A DNA stretch of 48,434 nucleotides from an uncultured Bacilli bacterium (GTDB lineage: Bacteria; Bacillota_I; Bacilli_A; RF39; UBA660). Below, in pieces: positions 1,774 through 6,352 of the stretch. The notes under the pieces are model-generated. The model saw only the letters and a list, made by a program, of their open reading frames with translations. It was not told where the DNA came from and ran no database searches. The stretch is taken from the NCBI GenBank assembly GCA_947626055.1, contig CANQQP010000005.1:1-48434 (forward strand), written 5' to 3'. Both the position numbers and the translations under genes were made by a program. Position 1 is the first letter of the stretch; each line of letters begins with the position of its first letter.

Positions 1774-2100
1774 AAAAGAGTGTATTATTTTTGATATAGC
1801 TTATAACTCATATGATAATTTAATTAAAGTTGTTAGAACTTTAATTTATCAACATATTTATGCTTTTGATATTATTTTAATGATGATAAAGTTTTAGTAT
1901 TCAAAGATTAAGTAAAAAGGTAAGTTATTACCAAGTGAAAAAGTATTAATATTTCTGATTTTTATTCTTAACAAGATTTAAAAGAAACAATAGAAGAAAT
2001 AAAAGCCTTTAATAATATTGCTAAAAAGGTAATTAATAAAGCACAAGAATTACCTAAAGAAAAACCATACGACCGAAAATACCATAGAAGAAGATATTAA
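1774..2100 (+). pseudogene. Decayed protein-coding gene with frameshifts
   Basis: No intact frame spans this 327-base stretch, yet all three frames contain segments of coding character that join up by frameshifts. First comes a frame reading IIFDIAYNSYDNLIKVV, then a shift to DDKVLVFKD, then LPSEKVL, then a last frame ending QDLKETIEEIKAFNNIAKK and a basic tail with PYDRKYHRRRY at the stop at 2098-2100. At least three indels or stops are needed to rebuild one protein of about 105 residues. I do not recognise the family. Its stop abuts a terminator whose near-copy also follows the surface cassette at 5612. Confidence 0.45.
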
Positions 2101-2124
2101 CTTGAGATTTACTCAAGTTTTTTT
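2096..2124 (+). terminator. Rho-independent terminator, left copy of a 29-bp repeat
   Basis: AACTTGAG and CTCAAGTT form the stem, with loop ATTTA (TTACTC side included), followed by a T run. The same 29 bases recur at 5612-5640, so identical terminators flank the two-gene surface cassette. Confidence 0.8.
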
Positions 2125-2144
2125 TAAAATGATAACATTCCTCG

Positions 2145-2175
2145 TTGACAATAAGACATGGGGGGGGGGTATAAT
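2145..2175 (+). promoter_or_regulatory. Promoter with G10 tract in spacer (putative phase-variable)
   Basis: A consensus TTGACA lies at 2145-2150 and a consensus TATAAT at 2170-2175. The spacer is 19 bases and contains ten uninterrupted G residues at 2160-2169, in an otherwise A/T-rich genome. Slipped-strand mispairing in such a tract would change the spacer length: 8 G would give the optimal 17, and 10 G gives 19. It controls the dockerin/cohesin surface cassette starting at 2206. Confidence 0.8.
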
Positions 2176-2205
2176 GAACATATAAGATAAGTATGGAGAT
2201 AAATA

Positions 2206-4662
2206 ATGAGGAAAGTTTTAAGTATTATTAAAGAGAAAAAGATTATAATGATTGTTATTTTGTTAATGGGAAGTTTGCTATTATTTAGTGATGTTAAAAA
2301 TGATATTTTTAACAATAAAAAAGAAAATACTTCTGTAATGAATTTAAAAGGAGCAAATGCATTTCGTTATGTAAATTTAGATGGGCTTGATTTTCAATAT
2401 ATAAATTCAGATAAGAAAAATTCTATAACAGAAATTAATATTATAAGTAATGTACATGGTTTATTAAATACAGATAAAATAGAAAAAATTGATGTTGTAA
2501 TTAATAAAATTAAAGCTAACCACCAAGAAGAATCAAAAATAATTTCTCATACAGGATCTGACCAGACTTTTAAAATTAATAATCAAGATAATTTTGTCAA
2601 TTTTAATGATGAAGAAATTAGTTTTGAAATTTATGTTGATGTTTATATATCCGGTCAAAATAAAATATTTTCTAATAAAAAAGTTGTAAGCTATAAAAAC
2701 AATCAATTGATTTTTAATGATGTTTTTGGCAGACTTGAATCTGTTGAACATAGTTTTGATGATGCATGGGGTTTATTTAGTGTTTCTTTTAAAGGAGAAA
2801 TTAGCGATGCTGAAGATAAATATGCATACGTACATATAAAAAATATTACGGAAAATTCTGAGTGGGAATATTCCCATTCTATTCTAGTTGATGAAGAAGG
2901 TACTTTTGAAGAAGTTGAAGATAGTTTTAGTAAGCCTATTGGAAAATATTTAGCATATATAAGTGATGATATTAGAATAGACGAAGGTGAAATCAATCGA
3001 AGTCAAATTATCGAATTTGATTTATTCCCAACTTCCGAAATAGAAACTGATTGTACAATGTGTTCTTTGGAATTAAATAATACTTTGAATTTAAATACCA
3101 GAATGAGTAATAATTATTCTCAATCAGATAAAACGACGGACTTTAAATATGAAATTACTCAAGGAAATGATATTATTGATATTAAAGATAATGGCGAGAT
3201 AACTGCTTTAAAAAATGGGGTGGCTACCGTTAAAATTTCTAAACCTACAGTAAACGGTGGTTATGATAATTATGTATTTACTAAAGAAATAGTAGTTTAT
3301 GTTGGCATTAGTCATAATCCCACTTTGACTGCTACTAATAATTCTATTCGCGTAATTGCTGGTCAAGGAGATTATAAAAAATGGAATATTAAATATTGTG
3401 AATATAATGATGAAGAAAGTAAAAGTAATTGTACACAAAATTTAGGAAATTTAAATGATTATGATGTAAAGGATTTATCTAATATTAATCCCATTTATGA
3501 AATAAAAGAATTAAAGGCGAATCAAAGATACTTAGTGTTAATAACAACAACTGATGAAAATAATGAAAATTTAACTAATTCAGTTATTGACATATATACA
3601 AAATATAATAGGCCTCATAAACCTCAATATGCTCAATCTTTAAATACCGAAGATAAATGGTATAATGAAGAAATCGATCATTTATGTATTAATATTAACA
3701 CTGCGTATAGAGATGAAGAAACTGATTATAAATATCAATATGCTTTGACAACTTCTTTAAATACTAATTTAAAATTTCAGGAAATAAATTTAAATACAGG
3801 ATGTAATTTACCAAATCTTGTATCAGTTAAAATGAATCAACTTCAAAATGGAGAAAATTATTTTTATTCAAAAATTGTTCCTAAAGATGTAAGTAAAAAT
3901 AATGAAAGTGATATATCAGAACCATTAAAAATTCAATATGATGATGTAAAACCAATTATTAATAAAATTGAGAGTGAATTTGTTATGGAAAGTAATAAAA
4001 AGAATGCCAAAGTTACTATAACAGCCACTGATGAATATTCTCAAGTTGCTAAATATCAATATAAAATTGAAGGAGAAAATTCTTGGGTTGATTTTTCTAA
4101 AAATAGTCATACATTTGAATTATTAGATAAAAATGTAGAGTTTAGAGCAGTAGATAAGGCGGAAAATACATCTGATATTAAAAAAATTTTTGTTGGTGAA
4201 CAATCAGTAAAATTAGAAGAAGAATCTTCTTATGAAATTGAAAAATCAACAGATGAAGAAGTTTTATTTATAAGTAATATTACTAAAAATACTAATATTG
4301 CTGATTTTAAAAATAATTTCTCCGCTTTTCAAGCTAAAATATATAACAAAAATGCTACTGTTGATGAAAGTGGTCACGTAAGTCAGGGAGATGAAATTAC
4401 AAGTGGAAAAATTGGCACCGGAATGTTAATTGTTCCTAATAATTTCCAAAATGTTTATCGAGCTGTTGTTAAAGGTGATTTAACCGGAGATGGAGAAATT
4501 AATATTGCCGATGCGACGAAATCACTTAAAAGTATAGCTACAACAGTAAAAACTTTAGAAGATTATGAAGAAAAAGCAGCAGATGTTACTGGAGATAAAA
4601 AATTGGCTGTAAATGATGTGGTTAAAATAGCGAAATTTTTAGTAAAAAAGGCAGATATATAG
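2206..4662 (+). CDS. Large secreted protein with Ig-like domains and C-terminal dockerin
   Basis: The 818-residue exoprotein has a Lys-rich start and a hydrophobic segment at about 13-28, which acts as signal peptide or anchor. A long beta-rich region of no recognised family fills about 45-275. A Big_2-like bacterial Ig domain follows (about 290-385, with the typical DIKDNGEITALKNGVATVKI pattern), then fibronectin-III/Ig-like modules (about 385-690). The last 63 residues (from about 756) are a type I dockerin: two calcium-binding loop-helix repeats, GDLTGDGEINIADATKSL and ADVTGDKKLAVNDVVKIAKF. Dockerins bind cohesins, and the next gene, 12 bases downstream, has a cohesin-like domain. No catalytic domain is visible, so an adhesive or structural role is inferred. 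It is expressed from the G10 promoter. Confidence 0.8.
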   Translation: MRKVLSIIKEKKIIMIVILLMGSLLLFSDVKNDIFNNKKENTSVMNLKGANAFRYVNLDGLDFQYINSDKKNSITEINIISNVHGLLNTDKIEKIDVVINKIKANHQEESKIISHTGSDQTFKINNQDNFVNFNDEEISFEIYVDVYISGQNKIFSNKKVVSYKNNQLIFNDVFGRLESVEHSFDDAWGLFSVSFKGEISDAEDKYAYVHIKNITENSEWEYSHSILVDEEGTFEEVEDSFSKPIGKYLAYISDDIRIDEGEINRSQIIEFDLFPTSEIETDCTMCSLELNNTLNLNTRMSNNYSQSDKTTDFKYEITQGNDIIDIKDNGEITALKNGVATVKISKPTVNGGYDNYVFTKEIVVYVGISHNPTLTATNNSIRVIAGQGDYKKWNIKYCEYNDEESKSNCTQNLGNLNDYDVKDLSNINPIYEIKELKANQRYLVLITTTDENNENLTNSVIDIYTKYNRPHKPQYAQSLNTEDKWYNEEIDHLCININTAYRDEETDYKYQYALTTSLNTNLKFQEINLNTGCNLPNLVSVKMNQLQNGENYFYSKIVPKDVSKNNESDISEPLKIQYDDVKPIINKIESEFVMESNKKNAKVTITATDEYSQVAKYQYKIEGENSWVDFSKNSHTFELLDKNVEFRAVDKAENTSDIKKIFVGEQSVKLEEESSYEIEKSTDEEVLFISNITKNTNIADFKNNFSAFQAKIYNKNATVDESGHVSQGDEITSGKIGTGMLIVPNNFQNVYRAVVKGDLTGDGEINIADATKSLKSIATTVKTLEDYEEKAADVTGDKKLAVNDVVKIAKFLVKKADI

Positions 4663-4674
4663 AGGTGTGGATGT

Positions 4675-5610
4675 ATGAAAAAAATAAATTTAGTCTTAAT
4701 AGGAATTATAGGCTTAATTCTTTTACCTATAGGGGTTAAAGCAAGTGACAATGTAACATTAAGTTTAGGTTGTGATGAATTAATATTAAATAAAACGCAA
4801 AGTTGTAAATTATATGCCGATGTAGCTTCTTCTCATACCTTAAGTGGAGTAAATTTAGAGTTAGAGCTAACAAATTTAACCGTTGATTCTTTTACTAAGA
4901 GTGAAAAATTTGAATTAAGTGAAGTTAGTGATTATGCTGTTAATATTGTCCTTATAAGTACTTCTAATTTATCCGGAAAAGTTGAATTAGGAGAATTTAA
5001 ATTAAAAGCAGGTTCTAAAAATGGAGTAAAATTAACCTTTAAAAATGCGGAGTATTCTATTGATGAAGAAGTATCAGAAGAAGAAACTGAGCCGGTAGAA
5101 TTTGATTTTAAGGTAAAAGAAGCTCAAACATCAGGTAGTACTCCCGGCGATTCTGGTTCTTCGGATAAAGACGACAAAGACGATTCCACCGTAAAAGATT
5201 CTGATTGTACATTAAGTTCATTAAGTGTTGAAAATGAAACAATAAATCCTAAATTTAAAAGTGATGTTTATGAATATGAACTTAAAACTAATGCTAAGAC
5301 GATTACAATTAAAGCTACATCTAATAGTTCTAAAGCTAAAATAAGTGGAACGGGAACTAAAGTTGTTGAAGATAACAAAATTTATAATGTAATTGTAACA
5401 GCAGAAAATGGAAATAAATCTACTTATAAAATAACCGTAAATAAAAATACTGATGGTGTTAATAACAAACAAAATGATGAAGAAAAATCAAATGAGGAGA
5501 ATCCTAATTTAGGAATTAAGAAATTATCTGTAATTATGTTATTAATAATAGTGGGAATTAGTGGTATCATTGTATTTAACAAAAAATTTAACTTATTTAA
5601 AAAAATTTAA
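4675..5610 (+). CDS. Membrane-anchored cohesin-like surface protein
   Basis: The 311-residue protein has a clear signal peptide (about 1-23, ending GVKA). Its N-terminal beta-sandwich (about 24-145) has the cohesin pattern: an opening strand, SGVNLELEL, then SGKVELGEFKLKA. An Asp/Ser/Lys-rich linker follows (about 145-178), then a cadherin-like domain of PF12733 type (about 178-265: CTLSSLSVEN, then VIVTAENGNKSTYKITVNK). It ends in a transmembrane helix (about 283-302) and a basic tail. It would therefore display a cohesin from the cell membrane and could hold the dockerin protein encoded just upstream. The ribosome binding site is AGAGGTG. Its signal peptide resembles that of the secreted protein at 16675. 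The cohesin call is by pattern only. Confidence 0.65.
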   Translation: MKKINLVLIGIIGLILLPIGVKASDNVTLSLGCDELILNKTQSCKLYADVASSHTLSGVNLELELTNLTVDSFTKSEKFELSEVSDYAVNIVLISTSNLSGKVELGEFKLKAGSKNGVKLTFKNAEYSIDEEVSEEETEPVEFDFKVKEAQTSGSTPGDSGSSDKDDKDDSTVKDSDCTLSSLSVENETINPKFKSDVYEYELKTNAKTITIKATSNSSKAKISGTGTKVVEDNKIYNVIVTAENGNKSTYKITVNKNTDGVNNKQNDEEKSNEENPNLGIKKLSVIMLLIIVGISGIIVFNKKFNLFKKI

Positions 5611-5611
5611 A

Positions 5612-5640
5612 ATTAACTTGAGATTTACTCAAGTTTTTTT
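5612..5640 (+). terminator. Rho-independent terminator, right copy of the 29-bp repeat
   Basis: This stem and T-run are identical to 2096-2124 and end the dockerin/cohesin cassette. The bases that follow (AAATGATA) are also similar in both copies. Confidence 0.85.
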
Positions 5641-5689
5641 AAATGATATAATTGTTATGAAATATAACTATTGTTAAAAGGAGAAGTCT

Positions 5690-6352
5690 ATGCTAAAAAG
5701 TAAATATAATATGACTAAAGAAGATAATATCTTCTTTGCTAAAAGAAAATTAGTCGATAATATTTATAAAAGTGCTAACTTAGAAGGAATAGCAGTAACA
5801 TTTGCTGATACTTATTCTTTTATGAATAATGTCAATACGGGTAATATATCGGTTGATGATATGTTAAAATTAAAAGGATTAAAAGATGCTTGGGAGTTTG
5901 TTTTAAATACAATTGATGAAGAACTTACTATCGATTATATAAAGAAAATTCATTTTGAAATATGTAAAGGGCAAAATATTAAACCTTTAGGTGATTTTCG
6001 CGATAAAGGCGTAGGTATAACTGGAACTTCATGGCGTCCTAAGTTACCTAGTGAGTGTGATTATAAAAAAGAATTAAAAGACATATTATCTATAGAAAAT
6101 CCTTTAGAAAAATGTATCCATCTATTTGCTTATATTCAAAGAGCCCAAATGTTTATGGACGGTAATAAACGGGTAGCTAATTTAGTAGCTAATAAAGAAA
6201 TGATTAGATTAGGGCAAGGTATTATTGCTGTTCCTGTTTCGAAAATTGGTGAGTATTTTACTTTACTTATAGAATATTATGAAACGAACAATATTAATAA
6301 ATTAGAAAAATGGCTATATGATAATTGTTTAGATGGTATAGATGACGTTTAA
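5690..6352 (+). CDS. Fic-domain protein with inhibitory helix; motif His replaced by Gln
   Basis: Fic proteins transfer AMP or related groups to target hydroxyls. This 220-residue protein has the (S/T)xxxE(G/N) inhibitory motif in its N-terminal helix (SANLEG, residues 28-33), as in self-inhibited class II Fic enzymes, and a Fic core at about 85-200. The core motif reads QMFMDGNKRVAN (153-164). The catalytic His of HxFx(D/E)GN(G/K)R is Gln153 and the final Arg is Asn, while Asp157, Asn159, Lys160 and Arg161 are kept. Classical AMP transfer is therefore doubtful, though similar RAQxF variants may form a real subfamily. It stands alone behind an AAAAGGAG ribosome binding site; no antitoxin partner gene adjoins it. 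Confidence 0.85.
   Translation: MLKSKYNMTKEDNIFFAKRKLVDNIYKSANLEGIAVTFADTYSFMNNVNTGNISVDDMLKLKGLKDAWEFVLNTIDEELTIDYIKKIHFEICKGQNIKPLGDFRDKGVGITGTSWRPKLPSECDYKKELKDILSIENPLEKCIHLFAYIQRAQMFMDGNKRVANLVANKEMIRLGQGIIAVPVSKIGEYFTLLIEYYETNNINKLEKWLYDNCLDGIDDV

Follow-up and report, generated by a model that had tools for sequence, protein, structure and literature searches.

A G10 tract between perfect promoter hexamers in an uncultured gut Bacilli bacterium: probably one of at least fourteen slippery switches for surface proteins

What is a run of ten guanines doing between the -35 and -10 hexamers of a promoter in an uncultured Bacilli bacterium? The window considered here, meaning the whole analysed stretch of 48,434 nucleotides, contains a promoter in which TTGACA and TATAAT are both perfect and the spacer (2151-2169) is 19 nt long, made up of ATAAGACAT followed by G10. 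These letters are exactly those given in a preliminary description, which proposed a phase-variable promoter for surface proteins. Apart from the G10 tract, neither strand of the window has six or more consecutive G or C, and 3 overlapping 8-G matches are seen where 0.06 would be expected by chance. The description also stated that long G runs are otherwise absent, which stands for the window but not for the genome, where there are 18 tracts of 8-11 G. The promoter region is laid out as follows, all on the plus strand.

2099..2126, plus strand: intrinsic terminator (AACTTGAGATTTACTCAAGTT and a T run) just 5' of the promoter, read from the sequence
2145..2150, plus strand: -35 hexamer TTGACA, exact sequence match
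2151..2159, plus strand: fixed part of the spacer, ATAAGACAT, common to most copies in the genome
2160..2169, plus strand: G10 tract, presumed slippage site, read from the sequence
2170..2175, plus strand: -10 hexamer TATAAT, exact sequence match
2195..2198, plus strand: GGAG, likely ribosome binding site, read from the sequence

Contig 5 of the 1.05 Mb source genome (60 contigs, 86% complete) begins with the window. Of the 18 G-tracts of at least 8 G in this genome, 14 are placed between a -35 and a -10 hexamer, on contigs C3, C5, C6, C11, C18, C24 (two), C25, C28, C34, C36, C37, C38 and C39; two are cut by a contig end, as C36 and C38 terminate at the tract, and leader repeats coincide with the ends of C28, C34, C36 and C38. 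The usual layout is mostly TTGACAATAAGACAT-G9..11-TATAAT, and the pattern TTGACAN{6,16}GGGGTATAAT occurs 11 times in the genome, its reversed-pattern control not at all. Paralogous copies with an identical prefix vary in their tracts, which hold 9, 10 or 11 G. A spacer of 17 is found at C24:10032, behind a weaker -35 (TCGACA), and in an interrupted copy, GGAGGGGG, at C19:12341. A terminator-like hairpin is observed no more than 70 nt upstream in 11 of 15 promoters of the source genome, compared with a mean of 0.4 in shuffles. The window G10 probably belongs to a set of 14 or more on/off switches for surface proteins, nearly identical to one another and prone to slippage. The remaining four tracts lie in or at the end of sugar/glycan open reading frames (three; C2 twice, C15) and in ftsK (one, a G8 at C1:95168). 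The G9-G10 tracts within reading frames at C2:10496, C2:14192 and C15:15562, all in frame as assembled, are candidates for phase variation by frameshift; the frames concerned encode a 563-aa glycosyltransferase-methyltransferase fusion, the end of a sugar dehydrogenase and a membrane protein.

The genes behind these promoters point to the cell surface. Downstream genes are predicted to be exported or anchored in 150 of 198 cases (76%), compared with 107 of 670 control ORFs from the same loci (16%; p ~1e-55). To qualify, a product needed a hydrophobic helix at its N-terminus and no more than one other; this rule is simple, and related genes enter the count repeatedly, but the difference is large. 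LPXTG-like ends are present in 7.6% of the 198 downstream ORFs and 0.3% of the 670 controls, and the start codon lies a median of 37 nt 3' of the -10. Targets in the source genome include a type IV prepilin operon (C6), small proteins on C11 judged by eye to resemble the secreted WXG type, two long surface proteins (C24) and, behind some of the promoters, a repeated gene family starting MKEKRIEKEIKKAQKKG.

Judged by pattern matches, the putative promoter design recurs across dozens of gut bacteria, some related and others not. The relatives that have names are mostly rabbit-gut assemblies entered as uncultured Bacilli bacterium. G6TATAAT sites are present in six of the eight other genomes of the genus (31, 1, 11, 9, 20 and 22 sites; reversed control 0), including copies in a sister species (G001) that have a -35 of TTTACA and a spacer of 15-16 bp. 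Among 385 genomes from the order, 37 contain the full pattern TTGACA-N-G6-TATAAT, with a reversed control of 0 in all; among 392 from the phylum, 14 contain it. A scan of 85,000 species genomes returned at least 119 matching stretches; among the matches listed, the hosts are chiefly gut Bacilli and Clostridia, along with Saccharibacteria, Spirochaetes and Fusobacteria. Many Clostridia and others have one to several copies per genome. A further sample consisted of 49 genomes reached through the loci, a set selected for having a match. The cultured fusobacterium Streptobacillus notomytis (G785, L102) has 19 G-tract promoters of the same layout, and the two that were inspected precede small exported-looking proteins. 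The copies in G032, a genome of another genus of the same family, have a -35 of TTGACC and a spacer of 15-16. There, tandem G7/G8 promoters with this -35 and 15-16-bp spacers (C3 5797-9533; L050, L068) each precede a related short exported protein. Only 2 matches were found in 2.9 million viral contigs, ruling out a feature that belongs mainly to phages.

Spacer length was analysed in 153 promoters from 40 genomes of the family, with spacers of 14 to 29 allowed. Prefixes range from 5 to 12 nt and tracts from 6 to 16 G, and the spacer has its mode at 19 (91 promoters), followed by 18 (30) and 20 (13). Permuting tracts among promoters gave a spacer variance as tight as that observed in 0 of 20,000 trials, and the result holds with a single row per distinct prefix; prefix length and tract length are inversely correlated (Spearman -0.51). 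The distance between -35 and -10 is therefore under selection, as expected of a working promoter.

Tract length itself varies. As anticipated by the preliminary description, which had suggested comparing related genomes, orthologous promoters differ: the C38 tract has 11 G and its ortholog in G004 has 9, with upstream DNA 94% identical over 1,487 bp, and the orthologous promoters at L138 and L150 have G8 and G9. Several other ortholog pairs have equal tracts, and in the pair formed by C24:12164 and its G003 ortholog, prefix length has seemingly been kept via two opposite 1-bp indels. The lengths compared come from sister-species orthologs and from paralogs, with no data from within one species, so slippage within a population is inferred. 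All lengths were read from consensus assemblies, two at contig ends, without reads or isolates.

The spacers differ from those of ordinary promoters. Perfect promoters without G-runs have a 17-bp spacer in 17 of 27 cases in the source genome (our own count) and in 18 of 33 cases in the loci of other genomes, compared with only 19 of 293 G-tract promoters with perfect boxes (Fisher p 4e-11; the 293 were pooled by hand from several sets). Outside the family, spacers cluster at two modes, 15-16 and 18-19, and are scarcer at 17 (p ~0.03 for unimodality; p 0.004-0.02 for prefix length). These figures raise the possibility that the usual 9-10 G place a promoter one or two bases off a 17-bp optimum, which would leave it poised. 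With a unimodality p of only ~0.03, this reading is merely suggestive. It is limited further by groups with 17-bp spacers, as the trough is not universal (family f18 and Streptobacillus have several), and by the geometry of the G-run, which could shift the optimum. That 17 bp is the strongest spacing is likewise an inference. Since the 19 bp assembled in the window depart from the 17-bp optimum of the genome's ordinary promoters, the promoter as assembled is inferred more likely to be weak or OFF than ON.

The best-surviving alternative is that these promoters are static, with the G-tract a fixed spacer that sets moderate strength, 18-19 bp perhaps the true optimum, and length changes incidental or rare. 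The rise of G-rich DNA, which is A-like, is shorter, and this geometry, the tight hold on a spacer near 19 in the family and the equal tracts of some orthologs are all compatible with such promoters. A static promoter, however, leaves unexplained why a mutable mononucleotide run is kept in front of so many surface genes, and orthologs and paralogs do differ in tract length. Nor would a single shifted optimum predict the second spacer mode at 15-16 in other taxa and, with TTTACA, in G001. Static promoters are consequently considered improbable, without being dismissed.

Still less likely is a regulon in which either the G-run or the ATAAGACAT prefix is the recognition site of a protein, and in which the genes would be regulated together instead of switching independently. 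The prefix is indeed nearly identical among the copies of one genome, but this similarity is accounted for by the leaders that paralogs share, and the prefix is unrelated between genomes, even of sister species, while spacer length is kept. An assembly or sequencing artefact, for which it can be said that homopolymer lengths are error-prone and that two copies end contigs, is already refuted as an explanation for the existence of the tracts by their occurrence in dozens of independent genomes from many projects, always between -35 and -10 and with reversed controls of 0, although exact tract lengths remain uncertain.

These comparisons lend good support to phase variation through slippage. Very probably, the G10 tract is where slippage occurs in a phase-variable promoter of the sigma-70 type, one of a genome-wide set that tunes surface-protein expression; both the slippage and its effect on expression are inferred. 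What had been predicted of such a promoter (recurrence in many copies, a constrained spacer, tract differences between orthologs and exported products) is borne out comparatively, with the effect on transcription still an inference.

The operon behind the window promoter consists of two genes with a terminator on either side.

2206..4662, plus strand: 818-aa exported protein (ATG at 2206) with an N-terminal hydrophobic helix and a C-terminal dockerin-like domain (about residues 756-810), from Pfam and PDB matches
4675..5610, plus strand: 311-aa cohesin-fold protein with a signal peptide and a C-terminal membrane helix, from an AlphaFold model and Foldseek
5615..5641, plus strand: operon terminator with the same hairpin sequence as that at 2099, read from the sequence

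The dockerin-like domain of the 818-aa protein matches PF00404 below the Pfam cut-off (E 0.0014), and a dockerin chain is the best PDB sequence match (E 0.0097). For the 311-aa protein, a PDB sequence search gave no match; the best domain-sized Foldseek match of its AlphaFold model, which is of moderate confidence (mean pLDDT 61), is cohesin 2vo8 (E 4e-5, TM 0.69 on target), and residues 180-257 resemble a cadherin-like domain weakly (PF12733, E 0.0014, below cut-off). The proposal that the controlled genes encode a dockerin exoprotein and its likely membrane cohesin is thus supported by sequence and predicted fold. With dockerin repeats and a cohesin fold both present, the assignment as a cohesin-dockerin pair is supported, while mutual binding is inferred only, in the absence of binding data. 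The pair is kept in G002 and G005, each with a G-tract promoter: G9 with a spacer of 18 in G005, compared with G10 in the window, and G7 then T, with a spacer of ~15 and a -35 of TTTACA, in G002. The switch layout is therefore maintained at this operon while the length changes. Both flanking terminators (2099-2119, 5615-5635) have the same 21-nt hairpin, giving the operon the look of an inserted cassette, and a Fic-domain protein is encoded directly 3' of it at 5690-6352.

The genus also carries the signature of a diversity-generating retroelement (DGR). In the source genome, C19 12304-8730 (L076) holds a target gene, a template repeat (TR), a 117-aa ORF and a reverse transcriptase (RT), with the interrupted, 17-bp-spacer G-tract promoter in front. 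The target gene has a Camelysin-like N-terminus (PF12389). The RT (C19:9833-8730, minus strand; PF00078, E 5.6e-18) contains GLPIGNLSSQ and YMDD, which we take to be a DGR-type RT motif; the 117-aa ORF between TR and RT, which might encode the accessory protein Avd, has no Pfam match. Mismatches between the template and variable repeats (TR/VR) fall at a template A in 20 of 20 cases in G002 and 14 of 19 in C19, so that a DGR-type RT motif and a TR/VR pair with mismatches at TR adenines are both in evidence. In G006 and G004, genes behind intact G-tracts carry variable regions with a matching template in the same genome: 23 of the 27 mismatches are at A for the G006 gene on C27, the remainder being at the edge, and 19 of 25 for the G004 gene on C14. 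A variable region on C39 of the source genome is similar to the template of G004, with 21 of 36 mismatches at A; no matching template for it was found in its own genome. The window dockerin operon gives no sign of being a DGR target.

In the mechanism proposed for the window, replication slippage would add or remove G in the G10 tract, each change shifting the distance between the perfect -35 and -10 by one base and thereby raising or lowering transcription of the dockerin-cohesin surface operon, while the terminator just 5' of the promoter would block read-through. With a tract of its own, each of the at least 14 promoters would switch independently, and the joint outcome would be a combinatorial set of surface states in the population. 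The purpose may be evasion of phage, immunity or rivals, a benefit that is inferred. Loss of mismatch repair was considered as a driver and rejected: MutS was found in all nine genomes of the genus (MutL was not included), so there is no sign of such a loss raising slippage.

A small genome with many repeat-controlled surface loci recalls the phasomes of Neisseria, Campylobacter and Helicobacter, which mostly involve coding-frame tracts in pathogens. The closest single likeness is porA of Neisseria meningitidis, in which a poly-G of 9-11 likewise lies between -35 and -10 of a surface-protein gene. There, 11G, 10G and 9G give graded surface expression, which is ~2-fold lower with one G lost and 13-fold lower with two (PMC3639595); graded expression by one or two G is porA's. 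The window promoter resembles porA in having a homopolymer between recognisable -35 and -10 hexamers, a surface or exported product (by prediction) and a spacer length under constraint (by the permutation test). Whereas porA is a single gene of a pathogen, uncultured gut Bacilli hold up to 14-31 such promoters per genome, whose hexamers are perfect and whose tracts adjoin the -10. In the gut commensal Bifidobacterium breve, pili are switched by intragenic G10-G11 slippage, and the authors mention G-tracts in promoter spacers without details (PMC9187656). The likeness lies in a G-tract slippage switch of surface structures; the characterised B. breve switches are translational frameshifts in coding genes at two loci, whereas the Bacilli switch would be a promoter. 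Given its kinship with porA and B. breve, the proposed slippage mechanism is of a known kind. The retroelement resembles known DGRs in its RT, template repeat, variable repeat and substitutions mainly at template A, and differs from them in that DGR-type variable genes in the genus also sit behind G-tract promoters.

No report of this promoter regulon was found in the literature searched, which was open-access only. What appears new is the scale (a multi-promoter regulon), the lineage (gut bacteria not yet cultured), the set point away from the optimum and the retroelement overlap, and the finding bears on a question posed in a review (PMC11868660). Taken together, the observations would fit a two-layer diversification of the surface in commensal gut bacteria: dozens of independently slipping G-tract promoters would choose the surface proteins, and within one family of these a DGR would rewrite the binding region. 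On this view, the fixed part of each spacer has evolved so that the usual 9-10 G leave the promoter 1-2 bases from the 17-bp optimum, in a state that is poised to give rare ON cells. This composite picture is about as likely as not. A promoter-type phasome that can be recognised by sequence alone can be tested directly on existing metagenome reads, and its spacer statistics amount to a natural experiment on the tuning of -35/-10 spacing. Overlap with the DGR would unite expression switching and targeted hypermutation on one surface family.
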